Below, piece by piece: positions 1 through 19,659 of a stretch of 64,000 nt of DNA (the first letter of the stretch is position 1; the number at the start of each line of letters is the position of its first letter). The translations under genes and the position numbers were made by a program. The stretch comes from Stigmatella erecta (GTDB lineage Bacteria > Myxococcota > Myxococcia > Myxococcales > Myxococcaceae), in the NCBI RefSeq assembly GCF_900111745.1, contig NZ_FOIJ01000001.1:62001-126000 (forward strand), read 5' to 3'. Below the pieces are notes generated by a model, which had not been told where the DNA came from, searched no databases, and saw only the letters and a program-made list of their open reading frames with translations.

Positions 1-3000
1 CGCGGGGATGTTGTAGGAGGCGTTGCCCTGTCCGAACTGCTCCAGGAACCAGAGCCGGTGCTGGGCGAAGGACATCGGGAGCGCCCCACCGCGGGGGATG
101 CGCACCAGCGGCGGCCGGCTCGCGCCCTGGCGCTCCCGGCGCGACCGTTCCACCCGCTCCGCGAGCCGGGCGACCGTCGGGGCCTCGAAGAAGTCCCGGA
201 CCGACACCTCGGCCTGGAAGGCATCCCGGATGCGGACAATGGCCTGCATCGCCAGCAGCGAGTGGCCTCCGCGCAGGAAGAAGTCGTCGTGGATGCCCAT
301 GCGCGGCACGTCCAGCACCAGCGCCAGGACTCCCGCGAGCAGCTCCTCCGTGGGCGTCCGCGGCGCGACGTAGTGCCCCTCCGCCGCCAGCTCGCCCTCG
401 GGGGCGGGCAGGGCCTTGCGATCCACCTTGCCGTTGGGCGTCAGCGGCAACCGCTCCAGCGTCACGAAGGCCGAGGGCACCATGTACTCCGGCAGCCGCG
501 TCAGCAGGTGTTCCCGCAGCTCGCTGGCCGTGGGCGCCGGGCCCTGGCTGGCCACGTAGCCCACCAGCCTCCGCTCCGCGCCGTCCTGCCTCACCACGAC
601 CGCGGCTTCCTTCACCGCGGGGTGCTCTCCCAGCACCGATTCCACCTCTCCCAGCTCGATGCGGAAGCCGCGGATCTTCACCTGCTCGTCGCGGCGCCCC
701 AGGTACTCCAGCTCTCCGTGCTCACTCCACCGGGCCACGTCCCCGGTCCGGTACAGCCGCTGTCCAGGCTCCGGGCTGAACGGATCCGGCACGAAGCGCT
801 CGGCCGTCAGCTCCGGACGGTTCACGTAGCCTCGCGCCACGCCCGCGCCGCCCACGTACAGCTCGCCCGGCACTCCCCGGGGCGTGGGCTGGCCATGCGC
901 GTCCAGCACGTACAGCGCCGTGTTGGCGATGGGGCGGCCGATGGAGACCGAGACCGAGCCGGACAGCACCTCTCCGGGCCGGACCTCGTGGATGCTGCAC
1001 CCCACGACCGTCTCGGTCGGACCGTACTCGTTGATGAAGCGCGTGCCCGGCGCCCGCTCCCGCCAGGGGGCCAGCATGGCCTCGGTCAGGGCCTCGCCTC
1101 CGATGACGAAGCAGCGCACCTTGCCCGCGACGTCCACGTCCTTGAGTTGCAGCTCCAGCAGCGAGAGCTGGGTGGGGGTCAGCTTGACGATGGAGTAGTT
1201 GCTCCCCGTGCGCAGCACGTTCGCCAGCGCCTCTCCGCCCTTGCCCTCGGGCACCAGCACCGCCCGGCCCCCCGTCATCAGCGGGGTCAGCAGGCTGGTG
1301 ATGGTCAGGTCGAAGCCCAGCGGCGAGTGCACGGGGGCACCTTCGCCTCCCGCAGCCTCGTACGCCTCGCTGCTCCAGACGAGGTAGTTGACGGCGCCCC
1401 CGTGGGTCACCATCACGCCCTTGGGCTTGCCGGTACTGCCCGAGGTGTAGAGCACGTAGGCCAGGCTGCCGGAGTCCAGGGGCACGCCGAGGTTGCCGGT
1501 GTCCTCCTGGCTCAGGTCCACTTCATCCAGACACACCCGGGGCAGCTCCGTCCGGGGCAGCTGCTCCCGGATCGACGCGTGCTCCACGAGGGCCCGCGCC
1601 CCGCTGCTTTCCAGGATGTAGGCCAGGCGTTCGGCGGGGTAGCTCGGGTCCAGCGGGACATACGCTCCGCCCGCCTTGAGGATGCCGAGCAAGCCCACGA
1701 CCATGTCGAGGCGCCGCTGGAGCGCCAGGCCCACCCGCACCTCGGGCCCCACGCCCAGCCGCTGGAGGTGGCGCGCGAGCTGGTTGGCCCGGGCGTTCAG
1801 CTCCCTGTAGCTCAGCGTCTGGCCGGAGAACTCCACCGCGATGGCGTCCGGCGTCCGCCCCGCCTGCGCCTCGAACAGGGCGCGGACATCCGTGTGCTCC
1901 CGGGGCGCGGTACGGGTGGCGTTCCACTCGGTCAGAAGCTGCTGCTTCTCCTGGGCGCCCAGCAGCGGCAGCTGCTCGTAGCGGCCCTCGGGACGCAGGG
2001 CCATCTCCGACAGCGTCCGCAGGTAGTAGCCCGCGATCTCATCGAGCTGCGCCGCATCCCACTCCCGGCCGTTGCTGCGCAACGTCAGCTTCAGGCTCTG
2101 CGACTCTGGATTCACGCTGAACGTCGTGTCCAGGGGCAGATCCAACCAGGAGGTCTCCTGGTACGGCTCGACGAGGCGCACCCCCTCGATGTGAGAGAGG
2201 CCCTCGGAGACGTGGAAGTGGACGAAGTTGAAGAGCGTCTCGAACAGCGGCTGCCCGCCGAGCTGCTGGCGCAGCCGGGCCATGGGGTAGCGGCGGTGAG
2301 GCATCAGCCCCCGCTCTTGCGCCACCACGTCCTGGACCAGCTCCACCCACGTGCCGCCCCCGAGCCGCATGCAGAACGGGACGCTGTTCAGGAACAGCCC
2401 CAGCACCCGCTCGCCGTCCTCCACTTCGGGACGCCCGTTCGACACGAAGCCGGTCACCACCTCGGGTGAGCCATCGAGCACGCTGCGGACGCGCAGGTGT
2501 GCGGCGAGCAGGACGTTCTTGAGCGGTGCTCCCGCCTGGTGGGCCAGCGCGCGCAGGCCCCGGGAGACCTCCTCGGCGAGCGGTATCTCGCGGAAGAGGA
2601 GCGGGCTGGAGCCCTCCGTCACGGGACGGCGCCGCCCGGCACTCGCCGAGCCCGCCCGCGACATCTGGGTCAGTTGCTCGCTCCAGTAACGCTGGGCATC
2701 CGCCGACTCGGAGGTCTGACGCTCGAGCGCCACGAAGTCGCGGTACGACGCGGCCAGTAGATCCACGGGCAGCGCGGCGCCCCGGCGCGCCGCCAGGTAC
2801 CGGGGGAAGAGCTCGGCCAGCAGCGAGGCAAAGCTCCAGCCGTCGAGGATCGCGTGGTGGAAGATCACCGAGAGCTGCGCCGTGCGGGCGCTGCGCCGGT
2901 GCAGCGCGAAGCGGATCAGCGGTGCCCGGTCCCAGGTGAAGGGCCGGCTGCGCTCCTGTTCGAGCCACTGGACCAGGAAGGTGGACTGCTCGGCCTGGGG

Positions 3001-6000
3001 CAGGTGGGTGAGATCCTCCTCATGCAGGGGCACCTCCACCTCGCGGTGGACGACCTGCAGGGGGATGCCATAGCGGGCCAGATCGAACGAGGTCCGCAGC
3101 ACCGCGTGCCGTTGAGACAGCTCGCGCAGAACTTGCCGCAGCGTCCCGGCGTCCGCATCCAGCTCCAGGTGGAAGCTGAAGGCGTCGTGGTAGAGCGCGG
3201 TCTCCTGGCTGTACTCGCTCTGGAAGAGCATGCCGGCCTGCAGCACCGCGAGCGGGTAGGCATCCACGGCATCCGCGGGCAGCCGGGCGCGGTCCGCCGG
3301 GGGCACGAGCGCGAAGGGCGCGTAGGCCACCGTCGCGGCGGGGGCCGCGTCCTGGATGGACTCGGCGATGGCGCGAATGGTCTGCTTCTCCAGGAGCGTC
3401 GACACGGACAGCTCTAACCCGCGCTCGCGGCAACGCGCCACGAACTGGATGGCCCGGATCGAATCGCCGCCCAGATCGAAGAAGCTGTCGTCGATGCCCA
3501 CCGTCTCCACGCCCAGGACCTCGGCGCCCACGGCGGCCAGGATCTTCTCGGCGGGGGTTCGGGGCGCCTCGTAGGCCTTGCCCAGCTCGGGCCGGGAGCC
3601 GTCCGGCGCTGGCAGCGCGCGGCGGTCGACCTTGCCATTGGCCGTGAGCGGCAGCGCCTCCATCACCACGAGGACCGCGGGCACCATGTAGGCGGGCAGC
3701 TTGTCCGACAGGAACACCTTCATCCCGTCGATGGCCAGCGTCTCGCCCTCCTCGAGGGTGACGTAGGCCACCAGGGACTTCTCGCCCGCGATCTCATGCA
3801 CGGTCACGGCGGCGTCCTGCACCGCCGGGTGGCGCCGCAGGGCGGACTCGATCTCTCCGGGCTCGATGCGGAAGCCGCGGACCTTCACCTGGTTGTCGGC
3901 GCGGCCGAGGAACTCCAGCGTGCCGTCCCGCCGCATGCGGCACAGGTCCCCGGTGCGGTACATCCGGTCTCCCGGCGTGCCGCTGAAGGGGTTGGGCAGG
4001 AAGCGCTCTGCGGTCAGCTCGGGCCGGTGGAGGTAGCCGTGGGCGAGTCCGTCTCCCGCCGCATAGAGCTCTCCGGGCGAGCCGATGGGGACCTGCTCCA
4101 GGGCCCCATTGAGCACATACACCCGGGTGCCCGGGATGGGGTGGCCCAGGGGCACGCTGGAGCGAAGCTCCTCGCGGCGGGTCACCGGGAAACAGCAGGT
4201 GAAGGTGGTGTTCTCCGTGGGGCCGTAGCCGTTGATGACCCGGCACGCCGGGTGGGCTTCCAGCACCTGGGCCACGTGCGGCGGGGAGAGCACATCGCCG
4301 CCGGCCAGCAACTGGCGCACGGGCGCCAGCACGCCGAGGTGCGAATCGACGAGCTGGTGGAACAACCCCGCCGTCAGCCACAGCGTGTTCACTTGCTCGC
4401 GCTGGATCAGCTCGCCCAGGCCATCGAGCGACGGCGGGGTGGGCGGCGCGATGACCAACCGGCCCCCGTTCAGCAGGGCGCCCCAGATCTCGAACGTGGA
4501 GGCGTCAAAGGCCAGCGGCGCCAACTGCAGCAGCGTCTCTTCCGGAGACAGGCGCACGTAGCCGGGTTCGAGCACCAGCCGCAGGATGCCCCGGTGGGGC
4601 ACGGCGACGCCCTTGGGCGTCCCTGTGGAGCCCGAGGTGAACAGCACGTAGGCCTCGGAGTCCGGGCCCACCGTGTGAGAGGGGTTGTGCCCGGGCTGAC
4701 GGGCGATCGCCTCTTGCTCGGTGTCGACACACACGAGCTGGATCCACTGTGCGGGCAGCTCGTCGGCGATCTCCGACCGGGTCACGATCGCCGCGGGCTG
4801 TGCCTCCTCCAGCAGGAAGCTCACGCGCTCCGCCGGATAGCTCGCGTCCAGCGGCACGTAGGAGCCGCCAGCCTTGAGGATCGCCAGCAGGCCAATCACC
4901 ATCTCCAGCGAGCGCTCCAGCGACAGGGCCACCCGGCTGCCGGCCCCCACGCCGATTCCGCGCAGGTGGTGAGCGAGCTGATTGGCCCGGCGGTTGAGCT
5001 CACCGTAGGTGAGCGTCCGCCCCTCGAAGGTGACCGCGATGGCGTCAGGCGTCAGCTCCGCGCGCTGCTCGAAGCGAGCGGGAACGGAGGCTCCGGGTTG
5101 GACGCGGTTCGGTGTCTCGTTCCAGGCCGCGAGCCGCCGGTGCTCCTCGCCGGTGAGCATGGGCAGGGTGTCGATGCGCCGCGTGGGCGCGGCGGCCACC
5201 GTGCGCGCCAGCACGAGGAAGTGCTCCCACAGGCGCTCCATCGCCTCGCCGTCGAAGACGTCCGTGTTGTACTCGGCGGTGACGGTCAAGCCCTCGCTGC
5301 CGGGCACGAAGATGAGCAGCAGGTCCCAGCGCGCGAGCCCGTTGCTCTCGCCCTCCATCAGCTCCAGGGTGAGCCCAGGCAGCTGCATGGCGGGCATGGG
5401 CGCGTTCTCCAGAACGAGCTTGGCCTGGAAGAGCGGCTGGCCCGTGGCGGTGCGCTGCGTCCGCAGCTCCTGGACGAGCCGGCCGAAGGGGGTGTCCTGG
5501 TGCTCGTAGGCCTCCAGGGCCACCTGGCGCACGCGGCCGAGGAGCTCCTGGAAGGTGGGCGCGCCCTCCATGCGGGTGCGCAGGACGAGCTGGTTGGTGA
5601 AGAAGCCGATGAGGCCTTCCAGCTCGTCACGCCCACGGTTGGCGATGTCGGTGCCGACCGCGATGTCGTCCTGCCCGGTGTAGCGCTGGAGCAGGACGTT
5701 GAAGACGGCGAGCAGCGACATGAACAGCGTGGCGCCTTCGCGCTGGGCCAGCGCTTCGAGCTGGGCGGCCAGCTCGCCGGGGAGGAAGAAGTGCTGGCCT
5801 CCTCCGTGGAAGCGCTCGCCCGGAGGACGGGGCGCGTCCGTGCGGAACTGCAGCGTGGGAACCTCCGCGAGCTGCTGCCGCCAGTACGCGAGGTTCTCCG
5901 TCAGCACGCCGGACTGGAGCCAGTCCCGGTGCCATGCCGCATAGTCGGCGTACTGGAACGCCAGCTCCGGCAGGGACGAGGGCACACCCTGGCTGTGGGC

Positions 6001-9000
6001 GCCGTAGAGCGCCGCGAGTTCACGCAGGAACACGCCGCCCGACCACCCGTCGGAGACGATGTGGTGCAGCGTCAAGCACAGGACGTGCTCCTGGCCACTC
6101 AGCCGGATGAGCAACGTGCGCAGGAGCGGGCCCTGTTCCAGGTTGAATGGACGCTTGGCCTCTTCGCGTGCCAGGTGCCGTGCCTGGGCCTCGGCCTCCT
6201 GGGGCGGGAGGGCACTCAGGTCCACGAGCGGCACCTCCACGGGGCCCGGAGGCAGAATCACCTGCACCGGGTTTCCGTCCACCTCGCGGAAGACCGTCCG
6301 CAGCGCCTCGTGGCGGTGGACAATCCCGGAGAGGGCACTTGTCAGCGCGGGGGGATGGAGCGCGCCGCGCATCCTCAGCGCGGCGGGGACGTTGTAGATG
6401 GGCGAGCCCGGGGACAGCTTGTCGGCCAGCCACAGCCGCTCCTGGGCCAGCGACAAGGGCATGGGCGCGGCGCGCGAGACCCGGAGCAGCGGCGGCAGCG
6501 CCTTCGCCGAGGGGGTGGCCTCGTCGATGCGGCGGGCCATCGCGGCCACGTTGGGCGCGTCGATCAGGAGGGTGCGCAGCGGCAGTTCCACGCCAAAGGC
6601 GCTGCGGATGCGGGCGATCACCCGGGCGGCCATGAGCGAGTGCCCGCCCAGCTCGAAGAAGCTGTCGTGGATGCCCACGCGGCCGGCCTGCAGCACCTGC
6701 TCCCAGATGTCCGCCAGCTTGCGTTCCGTGTCCGTCCGCGGAGCGGTGTATTCGCGCCCCAGGGTGGAGCGCCCGTCCTCCGGAGGCGGCAGGGCCTTGT
6801 GATCGAGCTTTCCGTGATGCGTCAGCGGAAGCGCCTCGAGCCGCACGAAGGCGGCGGGAACCATGTACTCCGGCAGCCGCCCCGTCAGCAGGCCCCGGAG
6901 CTCGCGCACCGCCTCGGGAGGAGCCACCACATACGCCACCAGCCGTGGGTTGCCCGGGGAGTCCTCGCGCAGGATGACCGCTGCCTCGCGCACACCCGGC
7001 AGCTCGCGCAGCACGGACTCGATCTCGCCCGGTTCGATCCGGTAGCCGCGCAGCTTCACCTGGTGGTCGATGCGCCCCACGTACTCGAGGCCACCGTCCG
7101 GCAGGAAGCGGACCCGGTCGCCCGTGCGGTACAGCCGGGCGCCCGGCGTGGTGCTGAAGGGGTGCGGCACGAAGCGCTCGGCGGTGAGCTCGGGCCGGCC
7201 CAGGTAGCCGCGCGCCAACCCCACGCCCGCGACGCACAGCTCGCCCGGCACGCCCACGGGGAGGGGCCGGAGGGCCTCATCCAGCACGTACACCTGGACG
7301 TGGGCCAGGGGCCGTCCGAGCGTCGGACGCGAGGGGTCCATCCGCGGATTGAGGGTCGCGCAGACCGTGACTTCGGTCGGGCCGTAGGCGTTGACGAAGC
7401 GCACCCGCTCGGCCCAGCGCGCGGCCAGGTCGGCCGGGCAGGCCTCTCCGGCCGAGAGCACGGTCCGGAGGCTGGGCACCTCCGAGGGCTCGAGCTGCGC
7501 GAGCACGGACGGGGTCAGCGTGACGACGGTGATGGCCTGCTCGCGCAGCGTCTCGGTGAGCGGAGCGCCGGGCAGCAGCTTCTCCTTGGGCACCAGACAC
7601 AGCGTGGCCCCCGAGAGCAGCGGGGGGAAGATGTCCGAGACCGCCGCGTCGAAGCTCAGCGCGAAGAACTGCAGCAGGCGGCTGTCCACCCCCAGCTGCA
7701 TGACCGCGAGCGTCTCTCGCGCGGTGTTGCACAGGCCCCGGTGCTCAAGGAGCGTTCCCTTGGGACGGCCCGTCGAGCCCGAGGTGTAGATGACGTAGGC
7801 CAGGTTCCTGCTGGTGGCACCGCCCGCGAGATCCTCCGCGGACTCCCGGGCGGCTTCTCCGGCCAGGTCCTCGAGGCACAGCGCCTGTCCCACGGGCTCG
7901 CCCAGCCGCGTGAGCAGCGGGCGGCGCGTGAGGACAAGCGGCGCGCGCGTATCGTTCAGGATGAAGGCCAGGCGCTCGGAGGGCAGGGTGGGATCGAGCG
8001 GGACATAGGCACCTCCCGCCTTGAGAATCGCCAACAGCCCCACGATCACGTCGAGCGAGCGTTCGAGGCACAGCCCGACGAGCACGTCAGGACCCACGCC
8101 GCGCCGGCGCAACACGCGCGCGAGCTGATTGGCCTGGGCATTGAGTTCACGGTAGCGGAGCTGCGCGCCTTCGAAGGTGAGCGCCACGGCTTCGGGCGTC
8201 CGAGAGGCCTGTGCCTCGAACAGGCGGTGAGCGCAGAGCTCCTCGGCCTCACCGGCGCGGGTTCCACTCCAGTCCACGAGCAGCCGATGGCGCTCGGCCT
8301 CGTCGAGCAGGCTCAGCTCCGCCAGCGGGGCCGAGGGGTGGGCCACCGCGGCTTCGAGCAGGCGGCCCAGGTGCGTGACCAGTTGCCGCGCGGTCTCCTC
8401 GCTGAACAGGTCCGTGCTGTACTCCAGCCGGCCGGAGAGCCCACCGGCCCGCTCCGAGAGCGCCAGGTGCAGGTCGTTCGCGATCAGCCGATTCGGCAGC
8501 TCCAGCCGCCGCAGCTCGAGGCCTGGCAGGGTGTGCTCGGTGAGCGGATCCGGCTCGATGGCCAGCACCACCTGGAACAGAGGCGAGGCGCCCTGATGGC
8601 GCGCGGGCCGAAGCGCCTCCACCAGCTTCTCGAAGGGCAGCTCCTGATGGGCGTACGCTTCGAGCGTCACGTCCCGCACGCGCGCGAGCAGCTCGCGGAA
8701 GGTGGAGACCCCCGTGAGCCGGGTTCGCAGGACGAGCGTGTTGACGAAGAATCCGACGAGCGCTTGCGTCTCCGAGCGGTCGCGGCCCGCGATGGGCGCC
8801 CCCACGCAGAGGTCGTCCTGTCCCGAGTAGCGGGACAGGAGGAGCTGATACGCCGACAGCAGGACGACGAAGGGGGAGACGCCCTGCTCACGCGCCAGCG
8901 CCCGGACCCGGTCCATGAGCTGCGCGCTCCACTGCACTTCCACGCTCGCGCCCCGGTGGCTGGACACCGCGGGCCGGGGATTCGCCACCGCCAGATCGAG

Positions 9001-11712
9001 CACCGCGGGCGCCCCTTCGAGCTGCCCTCGCCAGTACCGGAGGTGCTCCTCCAGGGCGCCACCCTGGAAACGTCCGCGCTGCCACGCCCCGTAGTCGGAG
9101 TACTGAATCGGCAGCCCGGGCAAGGCCGCGGGCTTGCCCGCCGTGTGAGCCTCGTAGAGCGCCGCCACCTCGCGGACGAGCACGCTCATCGACCAGCCGT
9201 CGGAGACGATGTGGTGCACCGTCAGGATGAGCACCTGCTCATCCGCGTGGGTGCGCAGCAGAACCGCTCGCAGGAGCGGGCCGTGGGCCAGATCGAACGG
9301 CAGGAGCGCCTCGGCGCTGGCGCGCCGCTGGACTTCCTGCTCGCGCTCGGCGGCCGGACGCGTGCGCAAGTCCTCGGTCACGAGCTGGAAGGACGCATCC
9401 GGGGCGATGACCAGGACCGCCGGTTCCTCGGCGTCCGTGGCGCGGAAGGTGGTTCGCAGCGCCTCGTGGCGGCGCACGATGTCCTGGAAGGTGCGCTCCA
9501 GGGCCGGGACGTCCAGGTGTCCCTTCAACCGGACCGCCGCGGCGATGTTGTACAGGGCGCTGCCGGGCTCGATGCGATCCAGCAACCACAGCCGCTCCTG
9601 CGCAGGGGACAGCAGGGGAGGCGTCCCCTCCGGCCTGCGCGGAATCGGAGGCTGGATCGCCGTCTCGGCCGCGCGGCGCTGGTGGAGCACCTGAGCCAGC
9701 TCGGTGAGCGTCGGCCCCCGGAGCAGCTCCTCCATGCGCACGGCAACGCCCGCATCCGTCTCCAGCTCATGCCCCAGCTCGAGCGCGGTGAGCGAGTCGA
9801 AGCCGAAGCTCGTGATGGGCTGGGCCGCATCCAGCTCCGCTTGCCGGACGCGCAGGCGCCGGGCGAGCCGGGTCCGCAACCACGCGGTGGTCTCTTCCAG
9901 AGAGGCCCCCGCCGCCAGCGCCGGGGTGTCCTGGGCCGAAGGGTCCTGCCCGTTCGCCGGCGTTTCCTGCTGCTCCGCTTGCCAGGCCGAGACGACGGCG
10001 AGCTCGCCCGCGCTGAAGCCCGCGCGGGTGGCATGGCGCTGGATCTTGCCGCTGGAGGTCTTGGGAATGCTGCCGGGCTCGATCAGCACGAGCGCGTGAA
10101 GCTGGACCTCGTGCAGCTCCGCCAGCCGCTGGCGCACCACGGCGGTCACCTCGGCGGGATCCGTCAGCTTGCGCGGATCCACTTCCTGAACGATGACGAG
10201 CCGCTCTTCGCCCTCGACATCCACCGAGAAGGCCGCCGAGCACCCTGGCCGCAGCGCGGGGTGGCTCTGTTCCACCGTCAGCTCGACATCCTGGGGGTAG
10301 ATGTTCCGGCCCCGGAGGATGATGAGGTCCTTGAGCCGCCCCGAGATGAACAGCTGGCCCTCGTGGAAGAACCCGAGGTCTCCCGTGCGCAAGAAGGTCT
10401 TCTGGCTGTCCCCGGCCACCCGCGCCTGGAATGTGCGCGCCGTCTCCTCGGGCTTGGCCCAGTAGCCTTGCGCCACGCTGTGGCTGCAGACCCAGATCTC
10501 TCCAATGGTGCCCGGTGCGCACGGCGTGCCGTCCGAGGGCGAGACGATCCGGATGTCCTCGCCCGGCAGGATTCCACCGCAGGCGACGAGGGTCTGTTCC
10601 TGGGCGCTCCCACCCGGCACCGCCTGTCCGAGTGACAGGGCCCTGGTGTCGAAGGAACGCTGGACGGTGGGGGCGCCCTTCTTGGCGCCCGAGACGAGCA
10701 GCGTCGCCTCGGCCAGGCCGTAGCATGCGTAGAAGGCGTTGGGGTCGAACCCGCTCGGCGCGAAGGCCTCCGCGAAGCGCGCCAGCGTCTCCGGCCGGAT
10801 GGGCTCGGCGCCGCTGAACGCCACTTCCCAGCGGCGCAGATCGAGCGCCTGCCGCTGCTCCGGCGTGCTCTTGCGGACGCACAGATCGAAGGCGAAGTTC
10901 GGGCCTCCGCTCACGGTGCCCCCGAAGCGCGAGACGGCCTCGAGCCACATCATGGGGCGCTTGAGGAAGTCGAGCGGGGACATCAGGACCGCCTGATACC
11001 CGGCGTAGAACGGCTGGAGGATGCCGCCGATGAGCCCCATGTCATGGTAGGGCGGCAGCCAGATGATGGCCGAGGAGTCCGTCCGGGTCTCGAACGCGCG
11101 GTGGATGAGCTCCAGGTTGTGCAGCAGGTTGCCGTGGCTGAGCATCACCCCCTTGGGGGTGCCCGTGGAGCCCGAGGTGTACTGCAGGAACGCCAGCGTG
11201 TCGGACGCGGATTCGGGCGGTTGCCAGTCGAGCCCCTGGGGCTCGGGGAGCGTGTCGGTGGCCACCCAGTGGAGCTCCTTGAGCTCCGGCGCCTGCTCGA
11301 ACAGCATCTCGGCGAACGAGGCGATGAACGAGGTGGTGAGGACCACCGTCGCCTGCGCGTCCGCGATGACCTTCCGGAGCCGCGGCAGCGTTCGCCCCAG
11401 CCGCATCGGGTCCGGTGGATAGGCCGGTACCGCGGTCCGCTGGGAGTACATGCACCCGAAGAAGCCCGCGATGTATTGCAGTCCGGGCGGGTAGAGCAGA
11501 ACCACCCGTGCGCCGGGGCGGGACACCTCCGTCAACGCTTCCCCGATGCGGCGAGCCCAGCGATCGAGCTCTCCGTGCGTCATCGTGCTGTCGGAACCGT
11601 CCTCCTCCAGGAAGGTGTAGAGCCGGGAGTTGGGCTGGGTAGCGGTTCGCTGGCGGAGCAGTTCAACCAGCGAAGCGGGAGAACGGGAGGACGCGCGATG
11701 CGCAACGGACAT
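1..11712 (-). CDS. Non-ribosomal peptide synthetase with FAAL loading domain (3' part beyond window)
   Basis: One frame stays open for 3,904 codons and runs off the left edge. Domains in order (residues approximate): fatty acyl-AMP ligase 1-585 (FAAL marks FYACYGLAEATL and GRLKDLIILRGRNIYPQD); ACP with FGFDSL, Ser640; C1 ~698-1140 (HHIVSDGWS); A1 ~1163-1645; PCP1 LGGHSL, Ser1692; C2 ~1752-2200; A2 ~2218-2690; PCP2 LGGDSI, Ser2751; C3 ~2820-3260 (HHAILDGWS); A3 ~3278-3765; PCP3 RGGHSL, Ser3818; start of C4 at the edge. Specificity residues aligned by eye to GrsA: A1 DASTLAAVCK (Tyr-like), A2 DAFWLGGTFK (Val-like), A3 DLTKVGEVGK (Asn-like). No E, MT or TE domain is visible. The ATG at 11712 is chosen because FAAL homology starts right after it; no clear Shine-Dalgarno precedes it. 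Predicted visible product: fatty acyl-Tyr-Val-Asn-peptidyl chain. Substrate calls are inference. Confidence 0.95.
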   Translation of the reverse strand, partial: MSVAHRASSRSPASLVELLRQRTATQPNSRLYTFLEEDGSDSTMTHGELDRWARRIGEALTEVSRPGARVVLLYPPGLQYIAGFFGCMYSQRTAVPAYPPDPMRLGRTLPRLRKVIADAQATVVLTTSFIASFAEMLFEQAPELKELHWVATDTLPEPQGLDWQPPESASDTLAFLQYTSGSTGTPKGVMLSHGNLLHNLELIHRAFETRTDSSAIIWLPPYHDMGLIGGILQPFYAGYQAVLMSPLDFLKRPMMWLEAVSRFGGTVSGGPNFAFDLCVRKSTPEQRQALDLRRWEVAFSGAEPIRPETLARFAEAFAPSGFDPNAFYACYGLAEATLLVSGAKKGAPTVQRSFDTRALSLGQAVPGGSAQEQTLVACGGILPGEDIRIVSPSDGTPCAPGTIGEIWVCSHSVAQGYWAKPEETARTFQARVAGDSQKTFLRTGDLGFFHEGQLFISGRLKDLIILRGRNIYPQDVELTVEQSHPALRPGCSAAFSVDVEGEERLVIVQEVDPRKLTDPAEVTAVVRQRLAELHEVQLHALVLIEPGSIPKTSSGKIQRHATRAGFSAGELAVVSAWQAEQQETPANGQDPSAQDTPALAAGASLEETTAWLRTRLARRLRVRQAELDAAQPITSFGFDSLTALELGHELETDAGVAVRMEELLRGPTLTELAQVLHQRRAAETAIQPPIPRRPEGTPPLLSPAQERLWLLDRIEPGSALYNIAAAVRLKGHLDVPALERTFQDIVRRHEALRTTFRATDAEEPAVLVIAPDASFQLVTEDLRTRPAAEREQEVQRRASAEALLPFDLAHGPLLRAVLLRTHADEQVLILTVHHIVSDGWSMSVLVREVAALYEAHTAGKPAALPGLPIQYSDYGAWQRGRFQGGALEEHLRYWRGQLEGAPAVLDLAVANPRPAVSSHRGASVEVQWSAQLMDRVRALAREQGVSPFVVLLSAYQLLLSRYSGQDDLCVGAPIAGRDRSETQALVGFFVNTLVLRTRLTGVSTFRELLARVRDVTLEAYAHQELPFEKLVEALRPARHQGASPLFQVVLAIEPDPLTEHTLPGLELRRLELPNRLIANDLHLALSERAGGLSGRLEYSTDLFSEETARQLVTHLGRLLEAAVAHPSAPLAELSLLDEAERHRLLVDWSGTRAGEAEELCAHRLFEAQASRTPEAVALTFEGAQLRYRELNAQANQLARVLRRRGVGPDVLVGLCLERSLDVIVGLLAILKAGGAYVPLDPTLPSERLAFILNDTRAPLVLTRRPLLTRLGEPVGQALCLEDLAGEAARESAEDLAGGATSRNLAYVIYTSGSTGRPKGTLLEHRGLCNTARETLAVMQLGVDSRLLQFFALSFDAAVSDIFPPLLSGATLCLVPKEKLLPGAPLTETLREQAITVVTLTPSVLAQLEPSEVPSLRTVLSAGEACPADLAARWAERVRFVNAYGPTEVTVCATLNPRMDPSRPTLGRPLAHVQVYVLDEALRPLPVGVPGELCVAGVGLARGYLGRPELTAERFVPHPFSTTPGARLYRTGDRVRFLPDGGLEYVGRIDHQVKLRGYRIEPGEIESVLRELPGVREAAVILREDSPGNPRLVAYVVAPPEAVRELRGLLTGRLPEYMVPAAFVRLEALPLTHHGKLDHKALPPPEDGRSTLGREYTAPRTDTERKLADIWEQVLQAGRVGIHDSFFELGGHSLMAARVIARIRSAFGVELPLRTLLIDAPNVAAMARRIDEATPSAKALPPLLRVSRAAPMPLSLAQERLWLADKLSPGSPIYNVPAALRMRGALHPPALTSALSGIVHRHEALRTVFREVDGNPVQVILPPGPVEVPLVDLSALPPQEAEAQARHLAREEAKRPFNLEQGPLLRTLLIRLSGQEHVLCLTLHHIVSDGWSGGVFLRELAALYGAHSQGVPSSLPELAFQYADYAAWHRDWLQSGVLTENLAYWRQQLAEVPTLQFRTDAPRPPGERFHGGGQHFFLPGELAAQLEALAQREGATLFMSLLAVFNVLLQRYTGQDDIAVGTDIANRGRDELEGLIGFFTNQLVLRTRMEGAPTFQELLGRVRQVALEAYEHQDTPFGRLVQELRTQRTATGQPLFQAKLVLENAPMPAMQLPGLTLELMEGESNGLARWDLLLIFVPGSEGLTVTAEYNTDVFDGEAMERLWEHFLVLARTVAAAPTRRIDTLPMLTGEEHRRLAAWNETPNRVQPGASVPARFEQRAELTPDAIAVTFEGRTLTYGELNRRANQLAHHLRGIGVGAGSRVALSLERSLEMVIGLLAILKAGGSYVPLDASYPAERVSFLLEEAQPAAIVTRSEIADELPAQWIQLVCVDTEQEAIARQPGHNPSHTVGPDSEAYVLFTSGSTGTPKGVAVPHRGILRLVLEPGYVRLSPEETLLQLAPLAFDASTFEIWGALLNGGRLVIAPPTPPSLDGLGELIQREQVNTLWLTAGLFHQLVDSHLGVLAPVRQLLAGGDVLSPPHVAQVLEAHPACRVINGYGPTENTTFTCCFPVTRREELRSSVPLGHPIPGTRVYVLNGALEQVPIGSPGELYAAGDGLAHGYLHRPELTAERFLPNPFSGTPGDRMYRTGDLCRMRRDGTLEFLGRADNQVKVRGFRIEPGEIESALRRHPAVQDAAVTVHEIAGEKSLVAYVTLEEGETLAIDGMKVFLSDKLPAYMVPAVLVVMEALPLTANGKVDRRALPAPDGSRPELGKAYEAPRTPAEKILAAVGAEVLGVETVGIDDSFFDLGGDSIRAIQFVARCRERGLELSVSTLLEKQTIRAIAESIQDAAPAATVAYAPFALVPPADRARLPADAVDAYPLAVLQAGMLFQSEYSQETALYHDAFSFHLELDADAGTLRQVLRELSQRHAVLRTSFDLARYGIPLQVVHREVEVPLHEEDLTHLPQAEQSTFLVQWLEQERSRPFTWDRAPLIRFALHRRSARTAQLSVIFHHAILDGWSFASLLAELFPRYLAARRGAALPVDLLAASYRDFVALERQTSESADAQRYWSEQLTQMSRAGSASAGRRRPVTEGSSPLLFREIPLAEEVSRGLRALAHQAGAPLKNVLLAAHLRVRSVLDGSPEVVTGFVSNGRPEVEDGERVLGLFLNSVPFCMRLGGGTWVELVQDVVAQERGLMPHRRYPMARLRQQLGGQPLFETLFNFVHFHVSEGLSHIEGVRLVEPYQETSWLDLPLDTTFSVNPESQSLKLTLRSNGREWDAAQLDEIAGYYLRTLSEMALRPEGRYEQLPLLGAQEKQQLLTEWNATRTAPREHTDVRALFEAQAGRTPDAIAVEFSGQTLSYRELNARANQLARHLQRLGVGPEVRVGLALQRRLDMVVGLLGILKAGGAYVPLDPSYPAERLAYILESSGARALVEHASIREQLPRTELPRVCLDEVDLSQEDTGNLGVPLDSGSLAYVLYTSGSTGKPKGVMVTHGGAVNYLVWSSEAYEAAGGEGAPVHSPLGFDLTITSLLTPLMTGGRAVLVPEGKGGEALANVLRTGSNYSIVKLTPTQLSLLELQLKDVDVAGKVRCFVIGGEALTEAMLAPWRERAPGTRFINEYGPTETVVGCSIHEVRPGEVLSGSVSVSIGRPIANTALYVLDAHGQPTPRGVPGELYVGGAGVARGYVNRPELTAERFVPDPFSPEPGQRLYRTGDVARWSEHGELEYLGRRDEQVKIRGFRIELGEVESVLGEHPAVKEAAVVVRQDGAERRLVGYVASQGPAPTASELREHLLTRLPEYMVPSAFVTLERLPLTPNGKVDRKALPAPEGELAAEGHYVAPRTPTEELLAGVLALVLDVPRMGIHDDFFLRGGHSLLAMQAIVRIRDAFQAEVSVRDFFEAPTVARLAERVERSRRERQGASRPPLVRIPRGGALPMSFAQHRLWFLEQFGQGNASYNIPA

Positions 11713-11718
11713 ATGGGC

Positions 11719-11751
11719 CAGTCTATTCAGTTTTGACAGTTTCAGAACAGT
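11719..11751 (-). promoter_or_regulatory. Phased ACTG repeats upstream of the NRPS start
   Basis: Read on the minus strand, the AT-richer stretch just before the NRPS start contains four ACTG tetramers with spacings of 11, 9 and 9 bp, i.e. near one per helical turn. The last lies only 7 nt from the ATG, where a ribosome site would be expected, and no Shine-Dalgarno is visible. This could be an activator site or coincidence in a short AT-rich patch. Confidence 0.25.
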
Positions 11752-11811
11752 GGGAACCCCGGCGGTCAGCCCGGTGGGAGACCAGGCCGCCGAGCGCGGG
11801 CGCGACGCAAC

Positions 11812-11838
11812 GGGTGCGCTGCTCATGGCAGCGCACCC
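11812..11838 (-). terminator. Perfect 11-bp hairpin between acylase gene and NRPS
   Basis: GGGTGCGCTGC, a five-base loop, then the exact reverse complement. It lies 25 bp after the acylase stop codon and about 100 bp before the NRPS start. There is no U-tract after it on the minus strand, so it may be a processing or stabilising hairpin, or a partial attenuator, rather than a classical terminator. Confidence 0.4.
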
Positions 11839-11862: not shown

Positions 11863-14343
11863 CTAGTCGGCCGAGAGGGTGACCTGCGTCAGGGCCGGGT
11901 CCGCGAGGATGTCCTCCTCGGTGAAGCGGACCGCGCGCCACTGCTTGCGCGCGAAGAGCTCGGTCTGGTCGCGGTAGTAGGGCGAGGCCGGATCCGAGGA
12001 CTCGCTGTACGTCAGCAAGGCCCGCGCATTCACGCCTTGCCCGGTGAACTCCAGGGCCATGAGGAAGCTGGAGCCGTTGGCGACGACGTAACCCTCGGAG
12101 GTCAAACCGGTTGCGGGGACGAGCACCGGGCCCCGGGCCGGAGGCTGATCGACGACCGTGGACTGCAGGGTGTCGTAGGAGATGACGTTGGCCACGCCGT
12201 CCCGGTGCAGGCCTCCGTGCAGGCCGATGCGCTTGTCACCCCGGGGGGCGAACTGCACGGTGGCCAGCGGGACGTCCAGGGCGATGTTCGCCCCCTGGAG
12301 CACGGTCACCGCCTGCGCGAGGTTGACCAGCGCCGGGTCCTCCCCCGTGGACGGGGCGGGCACCAGGGTGTTGGGCGTGGTGATGGGCGCGTCCGGGTTG
12401 AACCCCTGGAGGAAGAGCGAGCCCTTGTCGAAGAAGTGCGGCCCCGGGTAGATGCCGGTGAACTCACGCCAGAGCACCGCGCCGGTGCTGTCCGCGTCGA
12501 AGCGGCCGTTCCAGGCGCTGAGCGTCGCGCAGGCCTTGGTGAGGTCCACGGTCTTGCCGCCGTAGGTGGCCGAGGGCGTGCGCTGGCAGCGCTCCACCAC
12601 CTGGGCGAGCAGCAGCTCCGAGGTGATGCTGCGGTTGTTGAGAATCGCGGCCTGGAGCTCGTCGAGCGTGAACTTGCCGTCCGCGCCGGAGGCCCCCGCG
12701 GGGGTTACCTCGGTGAGCATCTGCATGTTCATGCGCGTGCGCGGGGACGGGGCCCGGCGCGCGAAGCCATGCATCGGCGAGAGCTCCGGCAGGGGCGCCG
12801 CCGGGTTGGTCAGCCAGTAGCTGTCGTTGGCGTTGAAGACGAAGTCCCGGCGCGACAGCTTCGGCGCCTGGGAGAAGGGCACCAGCCCAGGGGTCCGGGC
12901 CCCCGGCGCCTCCACCCACGCGTTGGCCGAGGTGCTGCCATCCAGCAGCACGAGGTTGGCCGAACGCAGCAGCTGGGTCGCCAGCGGGTCCGCGCCCGAG
13001 GAGGCCTTGAGCCAGGACTGGATGGCCGCGTTGCTCAGGTTGGGGGCCGCCGCGCCATCCACGTACCAGGTGGTGCCGTCACGGTCCGCCGCCACCGTGT
13101 TGACCCAGGGAATGCCCTGGTGGGTGGCGAAGGCCTCCTGGAACTCCTGCAGGTTCTTCGCCCGGTTCATCCCGTGGAACTGGGAGATCATCTGCGTGTT
13201 GGTCAGGTTCGCATCGCAATAGGTGTACGCGACCTGGGGGCTCCAATCCGCGGCGCCCGGAATGACGATGATGGGCCCGAAGTGGCTGCTGTAGAGCGTG
13301 CGCGTCAGCGGCACGAGCGAGCCGTCCGGCTGGAGCACGGAGACGGTGTGCGTGCGCGCCGTCAGCGGCCACTCCTTGCCGTCATAGAGGTAGTGGGTGG
13401 GCTTGCCGGGCGCGAGCTTGAGCCGGTAGAGCGTCATGCGCTGGCCGGCCGAGACCGTATGCGTCCAGGCGATGTGATCGTTGAAGCCGATGAGCACGCC
13501 CGGCACGCCCAGCAGTCCCACCCCGTAGACATTCATCACGCCGGGGACGGTGAGGTGGCTCTCCCAGAAACGCAGCTCGCCCTGCCACGGGAAGTGGGGG
13601 TTGGCCACGAGCATGCCCCGGCCCCCCTGCGCGCGCTCGGCGCCAATGGCCCACCCGTTGCTGCCGACGTCCCGCTCGCGCAGCGCCTGGAGCTGCTCCA
13701 GCGAGGGGGCCTCGAAGGTCTCCTGGGGCAGCGTGGTGATGCCCGGGGGGGCCGGAGGCTGGGCGGCGGCGATGGCGGAGATGAACTGGAAGCTGCTCGT
13801 GAGCAGCCCCAGGCTGATGTGATACGCCATCAGGTCCACTTCATCGATGGGCTTGGCCCACGCGGCGTTGGCGCACGCGGCGGGCAGGCCACCGGGGCCC
13901 GTCTCCTCGAGGTAGCGGTTGTAGCCCGCGACGTACCCCTGGAGCATCGTCCGGACGTCGGCCTTCAGCCGAGGCACGGCCTGGCGCGCGCGCGTGTAGA
14001 GATCCAGGGACAGGTAGCCGAGATCGCTGGCCACGTGGGCATTGCCGGGGCCCGGGCCCAGGTAGCGCGCGCGCTCGCCGCGGACCTTGATGACCTGATC
14101 CGCCAGGGAGCAGAAGTGGTCCTGGGCGAACGCATAGCCCTGGCCATACGCCACGCTGCCCAGGTCCTTGCCCGTGATGTGGGGGATGCCGTGACTGGTG
14201 CGCCGGATGGTGGCCTCGAAGCGAGGCCCCTGGGGTGGAGGCGGCGGCTGTGGCTCGGGGGTGTCCTCGCTGCAGGCCGTCACGGCGAGCAGCGCGAGCA
14301 GGGCAGCCACGGACCTCGGGGGCTTCCGGGTGCCGCGAGCCAT
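11863..14343 (-). CDS. Penicillin acylase/PvdQ-type N-terminal nucleophile hydrolase, lipoprotein
   Basis: 826 residues from the chosen ATG, which gives a clean lipoprotein signal (basic MARGTRKPPR, hydrophobic stretch, lipobox VTAC with Cys24). A second in-frame ATG 48 bp upstream would add a serine-rich lead; neither has a good ribosome site. The protein has the Ntn-hydrolase layout: alpha part starting with the RTSHGIPHI/AYGQGYAFAQD signature, a linker, and a beta part whose N-terminal nucleophile is Ser228 in DVGSNGWAIG, followed by VANPHFPWQ and the GFNDHIAWTHT segment. Family members cut amide-linked acyl groups (beta-lactams, acyl-homoserine lactones, pyoverdine precursor, aculeacin). 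Maturation by self-cleavage before Ser228 is expected. It lies between a CmlA-like hydroxylase gene and the FAAL-NRPS on the same strand, so deacylation or tailoring of that lipopeptide is a reasonable inference; quorum-signal cleavage is the alternative. Confidence 0.9.
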   Translation of the reverse strand: MARGTRKPPRSVAALLALLAVTACSEDTPEPQPPPPPQGPRFEATIRRTSHGIPHITGKDLGSVAYGQGYAFAQDHFCSLADQVIKVRGERARYLGPGPGNAHVASDLGYLSLDLYTRARQAVPRLKADVRTMLQGYVAGYNRYLEETGPGGLPAACANAAWAKPIDEVDLMAYHISLGLLTSSFQFISAIAAAQPPAPPGITTLPQETFEAPSLEQLQALRERDVGSNGWAIGAERAQGGRGMLVANPHFPWQGELRFWESHLTVPGVMNVYGVGLLGVPGVLIGFNDHIAWTHTVSAGQRMTLYRLKLAPGKPTHYLYDGKEWPLTARTHTVSVLQPDGSLVPLTRTLYSSHFGPIIVIPGAADWSPQVAYTYCDANLTNTQMISQFHGMNRAKNLQEFQEAFATHQGIPWVNTVAADRDGTTWYVDGAAAPNLSNAAIQSWLKASSGADPLATQLLRSANLVLLDGSTSANAWVEAPGARTPGLVPFSQAPKLSRRDFVFNANDSYWLTNPAAPLPELSPMHGFARRAPSPRTRMNMQMLTEVTPAGASGADGKFTLDELQAAILNNRSITSELLLAQVVERCQRTPSATYGGKTVDLTKACATLSAWNGRFDADSTGAVLWREFTGIYPGPHFFDKGSLFLQGFNPDAPITTPNTLVPAPSTGEDPALVNLAQAVTVLQGANIALDVPLATVQFAPRGDKRIGLHGGLHRDGVANVISYDTLQSTVVDQPPARGPVLVPATGLTSEGYVVANGSSFLMALEFTGQGVNARALLTYSESSDPASPYYRDQTELFARKQWRAVRFTEEDILADPALTQVTLSAD

Positions 14344-14445
14344 GGGAGAGAAGAACGAGGAGGAGGATCGGGGCAGGCTGGCAGGAAGCATGAGGAGCGG
14401 ACGCTAGGAAAACAGTCTTGACGGGGTCAATGGGGGGGACGGCTC

Positions 14446-16041
14446 TCAGCCCAGGAGGAATTCGCCGCGGATGAAGGGCATCTCGGCCTGGATGCCGTGG
14501 GCCCGGCAGTGCTCCAGGAGCTTCCGGGCCTCGATGAGCTGGGGCGAGGTCTCCGTGTAGCCCATGGCCATGATGTGGCCCAGCCAGGGCTCCCGGCCCA
14601 TGGCGTAGACATAGACCTGCTTGGGGTGGAGCTGGTTGACGATCTCGATGGCCCGCTGGGCGTTGGAGCCGTTGAGCCGCCGCGACTGGTCCGCCTTGCG
14701 GGGCAGGGGGGTGGTCAGCAGCGCCCCGTACATCCAGCTCATGGGGGCGCCTTCGCTCTCCATGCCCAGGAACAGGACGTCGATGTCGCCCACCACGCGC
14801 TGGACGTGCTCGTACAGGCGCGGCTCGATGGCGTTCGAGTCCGCCGCCATGAGCAGGGACTTGCCCTCGAGGTGGACCAGGTGGGCCGTCTTCGCGCGGA
14901 TGTTGAGGTCGCCGTGCTCGCCGAGGAAGGGCAGGCCCGTGATGGAACCGCCCGGGATGTTCAGGGTCTCCAGCTCGTCGATCTCCACCACGTGGGGGAA
15001 GCCCGTGTGCTTCAGGAGCAGCTTGAGCGAGGGGTCCGCCAGCGCGCCGCTGTTGCTGCGCGGGACGACGATCGTGCCAATGCGCCGGCGCAGCGGCAGG
15101 AGCGTCTCCAGCATCAGGTGGTCGGCGTGGCCGTGGGTGATGAGCACGTAGTCGATCCGCTCGGGCAGATCCGCCTCGGTGAAGCGCGGCGCATCGGCGT
15201 TCGTGTCATGGCTGAGCACGGGATCCGTGAGGATGCTCACCTCGCGCGACTCCAGCAGGACGCAAGCGTGGCCGAAGTAGCGCATGCGCACCCCGGGGCC
15301 CTCGTGGCGGCGGCGGGGCTGGGGGGCCTCGCCGGTGAAGAAGGAGGCGAAGCGCTCGGCATCCGCCTTCCGGACGCCCAGGGCCTCCATCACGGGCTCG
15401 ATGGGCGCGGGCGTCTCGCGCATGGCGAACAGGGTGTCCAGCGCCTCGTGGCGGAAGGGAACGTGGACGTGGACCGTGCCCTCGTCGCTGTCCAGCCGGG
15501 GCGTGCTGTAGACGTAAGGGCGGGCGTCTCCCTGGAGCAGCCGGAAGGCGAGGCTCTGCGACGACTCGCGGTAATGGGGGCTGCGGTACATCAGGGGCTC
15601 GATGAAGCGGACGGCGGGGCGGTGGTTCAGGTCGTACGTCAGCTCGACGTAGCCCCGGAGGATGTCCGGCACCTGGGCGTACAGCCCCTCCAGGGACATG
15701 GCCGGGGGGGCCTTGGCGAGCAGCTTCTCCAGATCGGCGATGGCCCGGGCCAGCTGGATCGACGGGGCTTGCTCGGTCTGGGTGCGATCCAGGAGCGCCT
15801 TCACCTCCGCGGCGCGCTCCACCCCGTAGTTGAGGTACGGGCCTCCCCGCAGCGCGGGATCCTTCAGCGCGGAGACATGGAGCTCCGGCGACTGCACGAA
15901 GGACTGCATCAGCTTCAGGTGCAGGTGGGTGACGAACAGAGGCGCCGTCGTGGGCGGGATGAGGTACCACCACGCGTACCACTGGTTGTAGAGCGGCTCG
16001 ATCGCGACGTTGCGCTTCAGGTACCGGGCGGGAGAGGGCAT
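14446..16041 (-). CDS. CmlA-type diiron beta-hydroxylase for carrier-bound amino acids (MBL fold)
   Basis: 531 residues, nearly the 532 of CmlA from chloramphenicol biosynthesis. The N-terminal half has the family stretch EPLYNQWYAWWYLIPP and is not a beta-lactamase region; the C-terminal half is a metallo-beta-lactamase fold with THGHADH. The candidate ligands His303, His305, Asp307, His308, Glu375 (GEHGD) and Asp401 (AADSN) all fall two positions before the CmlA ligands as I remember them (305, 307, 309, 310, 377, 403). CmlA and relatives such as Dbv28 hydroxylate the beta carbon of an aromatic amino acid held on an NRPS carrier domain. The neighbouring NRPS has a Tyr-like first module, so PCP-bound Tyr is the likely substrate (inference). 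A generic MBL annotation would miss this. The gene is co-oriented with acylase and NRPS, 102 bp upstream of the acylase ATG. Confidence 0.85.
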   Translation of the reverse strand: MPSPARYLKRNVAIEPLYNQWYAWWYLIPPTTAPLFVTHLHLKLMQSFVQSPELHVSALKDPALRGGPYLNYGVERAAEVKALLDRTQTEQAPSIQLARAIADLEKLLAKAPPAMSLEGLYAQVPDILRGYVELTYDLNHRPAVRFIEPLMYRSPHYRESSQSLAFRLLQGDARPYVYSTPRLDSDEGTVHVHVPFRHEALDTLFAMRETPAPIEPVMEALGVRKADAERFASFFTGEAPQPRRRHEGPGVRMRYFGHACVLLESREVSILTDPVLSHDTNADAPRFTEADLPERIDYVLITHGHADHLMLETLLPLRRRIGTIVVPRSNSGALADPSLKLLLKHTGFPHVVEIDELETLNIPGGSITGLPFLGEHGDLNIRAKTAHLVHLEGKSLLMAADSNAIEPRLYEHVQRVVGDIDVLFLGMESEGAPMSWMYGALLTTPLPRKADQSRRLNGSNAQRAIEIVNQLHPKQVYVYAMGREPWLGHIMAMGYTETSPQLIEARKLLEHCRAHGIQAEMPFIRGEFLLG

Positions 16042-17706: not shown

Positions 17707-17893
17707 GCAACAGCATGTATCCTCATCACGAGGAAACCGGCAGTTAGACCCAAGGCCAAGGGCGGGTTTTCCGTCCACCAGCGCACTTTTGAGCAGGGGA
17801 GAGTGTCAGCCCCTCTCAATTCAGCGGGATTGTTTGCCGGGTGCTCAACCGTGCGTCCAGCGAAGGGACGCGCGGCAGAGGGCTCGCCCCACG

Positions 17894-18384: not shown

Positions 18385-19659
18385 TTGGCCCTGACCACAG
18401 AAGCATTCGGTATGACCGACGTCGGCCGGAAGCGCCAGCACAACGAAGATTCGATGTTGGTGGATCCGGCGCTCGGCCTGTACATCGTCGCCGACGGCAT
18501 GGGCGGCCATGCCGCGGGCGAGGTCGCCAGCGCGCGCGCCACCGAGGCGGTGAAGCAGCATATCGCCGCCAACAAGCACCTGCTGAAGGATCTGGCCAGC
18601 AACCCCTCCCAGGACAGCCGCGCCGCGGCGGCGGCCCTGATGGAAGTGGCCATCCAGCGCGCGTGCGCGGACATCTACCGGATGGCCATGGCCGACGCGA
18701 CCAAGCGCGGCATGGGCACCACGTTCGTGTGCCTGGCGCTCAGCGGCAACAAGGGCGTCATCGGCCACGTGGGCGACTCGCGCGTGTACCTGGTGCGCCA
18801 CGGCCAGTGCCACCGGCTGACGGAGGACCACACGCTGGTGGCCGCGCAGCTCAAGGCGGGCACCATCACCAAGGAGCAGGCGGCCAGCTCCCAGTACCGC
18901 AACGTCATCACCCGCGCGGTGGGCATCCAGGAGTCCGTCCAGGTCGACACGCTCATCGTCGAGCTGGCGCCCGGGGACGTGTTCATCCTGTGCTCGGACG
19001 GCCTGCACGGCTATCTGGAGGACGAGGAGATGTTGCCCCTGGTGGCCGGGGTAGCCACCGCGGAGCTGCCCAAGCGGCTCGTGGAAGTGGCCAACGAGCG
19101 GGGCGGCAAGGACAACATCACCGCCGTGGTGGTGAAGGTGGCCGGCGATGGCGCCGTCGCCAGCGAGGAGACGAGCGAGGCGCAGTCGCGCATGGAGGCG
19201 CTGCGCAAGATTCCGCTCTTCCGGCACCTCACCTACAAGGAGCAGACGGCGGTGCTGTCCATCGCCACCACGCGCACGTTCCCCGCGGGGCGGGAGATCG
19301 TCGTGGAGGGCCAGCCGGGCGAGGAGCTGTTCGTCGTCATCCGCGGCCGGGTGGTCATCGAGAAGAACGGCGTGGAGATCGCCGAGCTGCGCGCCGGTGG
19401 GCACTTCGGGGAGATGGGGCTCATCGACAATGCGCCCCGCTCGGCCACGGTGCGCGCCACCGAGCCTACGCGCACCATGGTGATTGCGCGTCCGGACCTG
19501 ATGAGCCTGATGAAGCGCGAGTCCATCCTCGCGGTGAAGATGCTCTGGAGCTTCGTGCAGGTGCTGTCGGACCGGCTGCGCGCGACGAACTCGGAGCTGA
19601 GCGAGGCCCGCCAGGAGCTCGCCGTGGCGCAGGCCATTCAGCCCTTCGCCGAGGAGTGA
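18385..19659 (+). CDS. PP2C-family protein phosphatase fused to a cyclic nucleotide-binding domain
   Basis: 424 residues. The N-terminal 245 form a PPM/PP2C Ser/Thr phosphatase with the metal-binding motifs in order: RKRQHNEDS, VADGMGGHA, HVGDSRVYL, LCSDGL and GGKDNITAVVV. Residues about 270-390 are a Crp-type cyclic nucleotide-binding domain (PAGREIVVEGQPGEELFVV, GGHFGEMGLIDNAPRSATV). The cassette PRSATV resembles the phosphate-binding R-[ST]-A pattern of ligand-binding members. A TTG start is chosen because GGGAGAG lies 7 nt before it; the next in-frame ATG is nine codons later. It probably opposes Ser/Thr kinases, which are abundant in myxobacteria, under control of a cyclic nucleotide (inference). 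It is monocistronic, with a terminator downstream. Confidence 0.93.
   Translation: MALTTEAFGMTDVGRKRQHNEDSMLVDPALGLYIVADGMGGHAAGEVASARATEAVKQHIAANKHLLKDLASNPSQDSRAAAAALMEVAIQRACADIYRMAMADATKRGMGTTFVCLALSGNKGVIGHVGDSRVYLVRHGQCHRLTEDHTLVAAQLKAGTITKEQAASSQYRNVITRAVGIQESVQVDTLIVELAPGDVFILCSDGLHGYLEDEEMLPLVAGVATAELPKRLVEVANERGGKDNITAVVVKVAGDGAVASEETSEAQSRMEALRKIPLFRHLTYKEQTAVLSIATTRTFPAGREIVVEGQPGEELFVVIRGRVVIEKNGVEIAELRAGGHFGEMGLIDNAPRSATVRATEPTRTMVIARPDLMSLMKRESILAVKMLWSFVQVLSDRLRATNSELSEARQELAVAQAIQPFAEE

Follow-up and report, generated by a model that had tools for sequence, protein, structure and literature searches.

The DNA analysed here, a stretch of 64,000 nucleotides (the window; C1:62001-126000 of the 9.21 Mb, 47-contig genome G000), enters at its left edge what is probably a complete FAAL-initiated NRPS-PKS gene cluster of seven amino acid modules and one PKS module, whose predicted chain is best read, from its substrate codes, as acyl-Tyr-Val-Asn-Thr-aromatic-[malonate, KR]-X-Tyr. 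One minus-strand open frame covers positions 1-11826 of the window and continues past the left edge; it is part of NRPS gene A (C1:55638-73826, 6062 aa in total), which overlaps by 8 bases NRPS gene B (C1:43388-55645, minus strand, 4085 aa), situated left of base 1. Pfam places four AMP-binding, three condensation and four carrier stretches in the window part of gene A (3942 aa), and the FAAL-ACP and three C-A-T modules that an earlier, sequence-only reading had described in one frame were reproduced on the minus strand with Pfam and our own C-domain profile. The window edge falls inside the fourth C domain; inspection of the DNA to the left of base 1, a check suggested in that reading, completed the synthetase with two further gene A modules and gene B. 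Pfam, motifs and our C-domain profile give the order FAAL-ACP and five C-A-T modules for gene A, and KS-AT-KR-ACP, two C-A-T modules, a terminal C domain and the stop for gene B, with no E or TE domain found in either gene by the same means.

A near-identical line was found in one of the 59 genomes searched with the terminal C domain, G003 of the same genus (92%), where six core genes are kept in order: the PF05118 gene (71%), the racemase (90%), gene B (96%), gene A (97%), the acylase (91%) and the CmlA-like gene (98%). All substrate codes are identical between the two clusters, and conservation of genes A and B at these levels argues against a chance frame. The start of gene A may be either the Met at window 11826, which gives the longest reading, or the ATG at codon 39 (position 11712), where the feature of the earlier reading has its right end; no clear ribosome-binding site was seen by eye before either, and the G003 orthologue is similar over some 20 codons upstream of codon 39 and divergent before that.

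The presence of an N-terminal FAAL-ACP in one polypeptide with NRPS modules classes the line, on the nearest relatives of its domains, as a FAAL-initiated NRPS-PKS. The FAAL-like loading domain (window 9907..11706, minus strand, residues ~41-640, with the ACP following around residue 674) has 7r7e-g (‘Polyketide synthase’) and 3kxw (‘Saframycin Mx1 synthetase B’) as its best solved relatives, followed by the fatty-acid-AMP ligases FadD23 and FadD32, and would load a fatty acid onto the ACP. Modules 1 and 2, likewise on the minus strand, each begin with a C domain bearing the motif HHIVSDG (C1, 8299..9627; C2, 5149..6468), followed by A domains, with approximate ends, of predicted Tyr (A1, 6787..8244, DASTLAAVCK) and Val (A2, 3607..5094, DAFWLGGTFK, its own carrier showing LGGDSI) specificity; A3 (421..1899, again with approximate ends, minus strand) carries DLTKVGEVGK and is predicted to activate Asn. 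The alignment-derived codes of gene A are, in order, DASTLAAVCK, DAFWLGGTFK, DLTKVGEVGK, DFWNIGMVHK and DACTIAAICK, and those after the PKS module in gene B are DARSLSQLTK and DASTIAAVCK; the first three are identical to the codes previously read by eye.

Calibration of these codes comes from a published table, in which the A2 code stands unchanged for the Val module of malacidin MlcM and DFWNVGMVHK, one residue from the fourth code, is listed as Thr (PMC9113097), and from a cystomanamide-like cluster in G034, found via its FkbH domain, in which DLTKIGEVGK, DALIVAAVCK, the FkbH domain and DASTVAAVCK stand where the published cystomanamide order has Asn, Phe, glycerate and Tyr (PMC9581180). DLTKVGEVGK and DASTLAAVCK each differ by one residue from the codes at the Asn position and in the last module of that line. 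Together with the published Val code, the G034 line supports the earlier assignment of Tyr, Val and Asn as the first activated residues, although these are three of seven amino acid modules, so that the proposed acyl-Tyr-Val-Asn scaffold was correct in its opening and incomplete in its extent. The first module of the G034 cluster (C1:9850094-9876980) has DILQLGMVWK, which we take to be a Gly-like code, at a position where the published residue is Asn; this line is thus perhaps a variant, and the calibration is good rather than perfect. For Tyr, Asn, Ser, Gly, Ile and the D-MeAsp module of microcystin, the reference codes used are those that we presume to be standard, as are the ten code-residue positions. 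When eleven codes (one partial) were looked up in open-licence PMC papers, only DAFWLGGTFK was found, with DACTIAAICK and DARSLSQLTK in none of the papers searched.

The PKS module shows HAFH in its AT, the C-H-H set in its KS and YxxxN in its KR. HAFH is presumably of the malonyl type, and extension of the preceding aromatic residue by a reduced malonate would yield a statine-like 4-amino-3-hydroxy acid.

The condensation domain that follows Val, C3 (1954..3264, minus strand), is predicted to be of the dehydrating CmodAA type, with the hallmarks KNVLLAAH and HRRYP and with McyA (8jbr) as its nearest solved relative, at 379 bits compared with 198 bits for AmbE and about 125 bits or less for other chains. 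The domain of AmbE has been assigned to the dehydrating CmodAA type (PMC10880069; PMC11342130), which is marked by [K/R]SVLLAAH ahead of motif C5 and by a C6 that opens with one or two Arg (PMC11342130). C3 has both the K/R…H helix before C5 and RR at C6, and the residue upstream, Val by code in a cluster with hydroxylase-family genes, is one able to receive a beta-hydroxyl. Across 101 C and E domains of the fetched clusters (pieces under about 380 residues were left out), K and H occupy the aligned columns in nine, C3 included, all nine with RR at C6, and the pair is missing from the remaining 92; a strict motif pattern returned five domains, and the nine of the aligned-column test are the number used here. 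Among the C domains of further fetched loci, outside the 101, none was flagged as CmodAA by a separate motif pattern. The nine belong to this cluster, G003, G001, G017, G020, G028 (three) and G034, and the codes upstream of them are Val/Ile-type in six and Ser or Thr type in three, on an assignment that is partly our presumption.

The carrier upstream reads LGGDSI in all nine cases; the motif was detected for 41 of the 64 ordinary C domains (23 gave none) and was xGGxSL in every one. The same LGGDSI stands before 11 of the 12 E domains and all four D-like C domains without an E domain, and so supports a grouping on the D side, not dehydration itself. To this extent the carrier would also suit a dual epimerisation/condensation or ordinary D-specific C3, with D-Val as residue 2, as would the tree, where C3 is sister to the C-after-E group, on a long branch and in a placement that the program flagged as unsure. 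That alternative is nevertheless improbable, given that no E domain precedes C3, that McyA and AmbE are its nearest solved domains, that the K/H pair is missing from 12 of 12 C-after-E and 12 of 12 E domains, and that the carrier-to-domain spacing is 65-72 residues in the nine CmodAA-like domains, compared with 55-59 in ordinary C domains and 79-92 in the four D-like ones. Published typical spacings, measured somewhat differently, are 60 for LCL, 74 for modAA and 92 for Dual domains (PMC10212144). It is thus quite likely, the domain type being assigned by sequence, that carrier-bound Val is first hydroxylated and then converted by C3, through loss of water, to dehydrovaline before being joined to Asn. 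A comparable route has been proposed for the dehydrovaline of myxovalargin (PMC10880069; PMC9853869), the C domains after these residues being placed in the dehydrating group, with in-line hydroxylation proposed to come first (PMC10880069). The association of a CmodAA domain, a Val substrate and hydroxylase-family genes in one block bears on how dehydrovaline is formed. A line in G028 (C1:4246525-4260225) contains two CmodAA-like domains, each between two differing codes, which we take to be Val-type before and Gln-type after each domain.

The hydroxyl required by C3 could be introduced by the product of a CmlA-like diiron beta-hydroxylase gene (14446..16041, minus strand; PF18456, 285 bits), which has the CmlA N-terminal domain and the HxHxDH metal site, as HGHADH at 303, and finds its best solved relatives in 8a90 and CmlA structures. 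Possible too, at somewhat less than even odds, is that this enzyme acts on Tyr (residue 1 or 7) or on the FAAL-loaded acyl chain in place of Val. Fifteen of 20 CmlA homologues sharing at least 49% identity, among the matches listed in 14 genomes, our own included (counted by hand, with the best 10 candidates per genome scored), have a FAAL within 60 kb despite the differing amino acid codes of the lines that they accompany, the five without being two G033 loci (on contigs without a FAAL match) and one each in G121, G028 and G096. Several homologues at 64-71% also adjoin lines with DAxTxAAxCK codes, and relatives at 64-69% identity occur in the G013 and G020 clusters, which have no Val-CmodAA pair; the G028 Val-CmodAA line, with two such pairs, has no relative of the CmlA-like or PF05118 gene of this cluster in the 58 kb fetched. 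FAAL genes are, however, common in the 14 genomes searched (2-10 matches per genome), so that the link is partly background, and CmlA relatives in G034 and G001 go with a Val/Ile-type CmodAA pair. The CmlA-FAAL pairing was also considered as proof of acyl-chain hydroxylation, a use weakened by the same abundance of FAAL genes.

Among the matches listed, which do not extend to 64 genomes without a match, every g23 and g43 genome has a CmlA relative at about 61-64% identity. For the two of these that were examined (G028:C1:4102637-4104205 and G096:C1:5825211-5826776), the surrounding 40 kb and 20 kb, respectively, showed neither C nor A nor FAAL domains; such an orphan could be a beta-hydroxylase that lacks an assigned gene in corramycin or myxoprincomide.

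Three further genes of the block lie beyond gene B. The PF05118 beta-hydroxylase-family gene (C1:41661-42419) has relatives at 41-42% in G001 and G034, where they go with FAAL lines that include Asn, from which beta-hydroxylation of Asn by its product may be guessed, with about an even chance of being right. The neighbouring McyF-like racemase of the asp_race family (C1:42476-43231) scores 103.3 bits against an NCBIfam subfamily cut-off of 93.1, has McyF as its best solved relative, and contains ACITMHH and AGCTEFH, whose Cys residues are presumably the two of the active site; that it supplies a D-acidic amino acid, most likely for the unusual DARSLSQLTK module, is a tentative and weakly indicated suggestion. 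The FkbH-like gene (C1:39573-41624; FkbH family, 156 bits, above cut-off) lies inside the block and was left out of the core cluster, as no relative occurs in the 60 kb fetched around the G003 orthologous cluster; its product may add a glyceryl unit that is peculiar to this strain.

The chain ends at the terminal C domain of gene B, which bears the motif HHAITDY. In the tree, the terminal C domains from nine cluster copies group as a single clade (support 99/99), separate from the other C domains, and named relatives at 52-53% over the best segment come from Myxococcus sp. RHSTA-1-4, Corallococcus carmarthensis and Corallococcus sp. AS-1-6, the first again with its terminal C domain after a KR-ACP gene and two C-A-T modules. 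Where the upstream part of a line in this clade was seen, in seven of eight two or three NRPS modules separate a KR-containing PKS module from the end, the eighth, from our own genome (C1:771485-789277), being without one. For the terminal C domain of myxovalargin, addition of agmatine has been proposed (PMC9853869), and by analogy release through capture of a free amine is plausible here, if a little short of even odds; none of the cluster genes was recognised as making an amine. Cyclisation onto a hydroxyl by the same domain is a rather less likely mode of release. A shared terminal-C type of release is indicated for several orphan lines of Myxococcaceae. The second NRPS of our own genome with this terminal C clade (C1:771485-792301) has a CmlA-like gene (40%) nearby, and its relatives in G004 and G005 come with a KS-AT-KR gene.

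Directly ahead of gene A, 36 bp before its longest reading and on the same strand, lies a penicillin-amidase family acylase (11863..14391, minus strand) whose nearest solved relative is PvdQ (1.9e-125). Ser244 aligns to the start of the PvdQ beta chain, as in the PvdQ type of this family, and the N-terminus appears by eye to be lipoprotein-like; at 592 bits against an NCBIfam equivalog cut-off of 950, the protein is a relative of PvdQ, not PvdQ itself. PvdQ removes the fatty acid of the pyoverdine precursor, and the presence of a PvdQ-like acylase in the same block as the line suggests a deacylated product, the fatty acid probably being removed outside the cytoplasm.

A true lipopeptide, with an unrelated AHL or antibiotic acylase merely adjoining the FAAL gene, is a less likely outcome. 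It would agree with the naming of PvdQ in the PDB also as an acyl-homoserine lactone acylase and with the surroundings of the acylase relatives (39-57% identity), of which one in ten loci outside the two orthologous clusters, in stretches of 10.5 to 20 kb, has a FAAL alongside. With nine such loci lacking a FAAL, the acylase-FAAL link rests on gene position here and its recurrence in G005, where an acylase relative (53%) directly precedes another FAAL-NRPS gene. Against a chance neighbour stand that recurrence, the 36 bp spacing on one strand inside a block missing from relatives, and the retention of the acylase at 91% in the orthologous cluster. Compared with the lipopeptide of the sequence-only reading, Val is probably modified through C3 and the acyl group is perhaps removed by the PvdQ-like acylase. 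The G005 locus (C1:5112487-5121358) has its acylase before a FAAL-ACP-C-A gene that also contains a luciferase-like monooxygenase domain. A siderophore, prompted as an idea by the PvdQ-like acylase and the beta-hydroxylases, was rejected as the product since the codes for Tyr, Val, Asn, Thr and an aromatic residue are no typical chelating set.

The cluster genes coincide with a difference between genomes of the genus. NRPS genes A and B, the acylase, the CmlA-like, racemase, PF05118 and FkbH-like genes form a block, 38.6 kb at most, that G004 and G005 lack at this position. It spans 38,574 bp between a PAS-histidine kinase gene (window 16117-17778; C1:78117-79778), on the same strand as the cluster and 75 bp upstream of it, and an endonuclease-like gene (C1:37563-39542). 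In G004, matches to these two flanking genes are 973 bp apart, and in G005 the kinase and a chitinase-like gene are about 3.0 kb apart; both flanks were matched together only in these two genomes, G001 and G006 being matched on the kinase/phosphatase side alone. The kinase gene and the neighbouring gene for a PP2C-cNMP-binding protein (window 18385-19659), the latter present in 7/7 genomes of the genus, were both found in G001, G004, G005 and G006. Gain of the block here is a simpler reading than its loss in G004 and G005.

Taken together, these features favour, on balance, an assembly in which seven NRPS modules and one KS-AT-KR module would extend a FAAL-loaded fatty acid into acyl-Tyr-Val-Asn-Thr-aromatic-[malonate reduced to beta-hydroxy acid]-X-Tyr, with the modifications and release set out above. 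A further, more speculative and rather doubtful proposal is that the chain is assembled as a protected precursor and loses its fatty acid on export, leaving a peptide with dehydrovaline, a central aryl-statine and its other end capped by the terminal C domain, a domain of the clade with which a set of orphan myxobacterial lines end. Aryl-statines act as transition-state mimics in aspartic-protease inhibitors. If the assembly holds, the product would unite three uncommon features: a dehydrovaline residue, a gamma-amino acid with a beta-hydroxyl, and the loss of its acyl group.

The machinery is of a known, ordinary kind, and its product is an orphan within the open-licence PMC literature, where no compound with this module order was found in the papers searched; the earlier suggestion of a possibly uncharacterised product holds within those papers. 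Production of a variant of an already characterised compound from myxobacteria (cystomanamide, corramycin, vioprolide, myxovalargin or myxochromide) would account for individual features, namely a FAAL start with acyl removal in vioprolide and corramycin, a terminal C domain and dehydrovaline in myxovalargin, and Asn and Tyr in cystomanamide, yet is very improbable, since the published descriptions as compared, that of vioprolide in part only, show other numbers and orders of modules and other domain strings. Cystomanamide shares modules for Asn and Tyr, whose codes in the G034 line differ from those here by a single residue, and beta-hydroxylated residues, and differs in its starter, E domains, FkbH module and TE in the sections of PMC9581180 that describe it; its order of C-A-PCP-E, C-C-A-PCP, FkbH module and TE is not that of this line. 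Corramycin (com) and vioprolide share the FAAL-ACP start, an NRPS-PKS line and a fatty acid proposed to be shed once assembly is complete, but have an FkbH module as the second module and a proposed hydrolase that is not named as PvdQ-like in the relevant sections of PMC10099666, where corramycin has 12 modules and a TE. Myxovalargin (mxv) is likewise myxobacterial and without a type-1 TE, its terminal C domain being proposed to release the chain with agmatine (PMC9853869) and the C domains after its dehydrovaline residues falling in the dehydrating group of a review (PMC10880069); as described in the sections of PMC9853869 concerned, it differs in that it starts from isovaleryl, incorporates other residues and has E domains and at least 10 modules, with no PKS module named, so that neither its module order nor its starter is that of this line.

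Outside the myxobacteria, the pyoverdine pathway, although its product is a siderophore, which the product predicted here does not resemble, and although the acylase here is below the PvdQ equivalog cut-off, offers in PvdL and PvdQ the same pairing of an NRPS primed with an acyl group and an acylase of the penicillin-amidase family that takes the fatty acid off. The starter and the cyclisation that characterise the microcystin pathway have no counterpart here, but two of its enzymes supply the closest solved structures in this cluster, McyA for C3 and McyF for the racemase.
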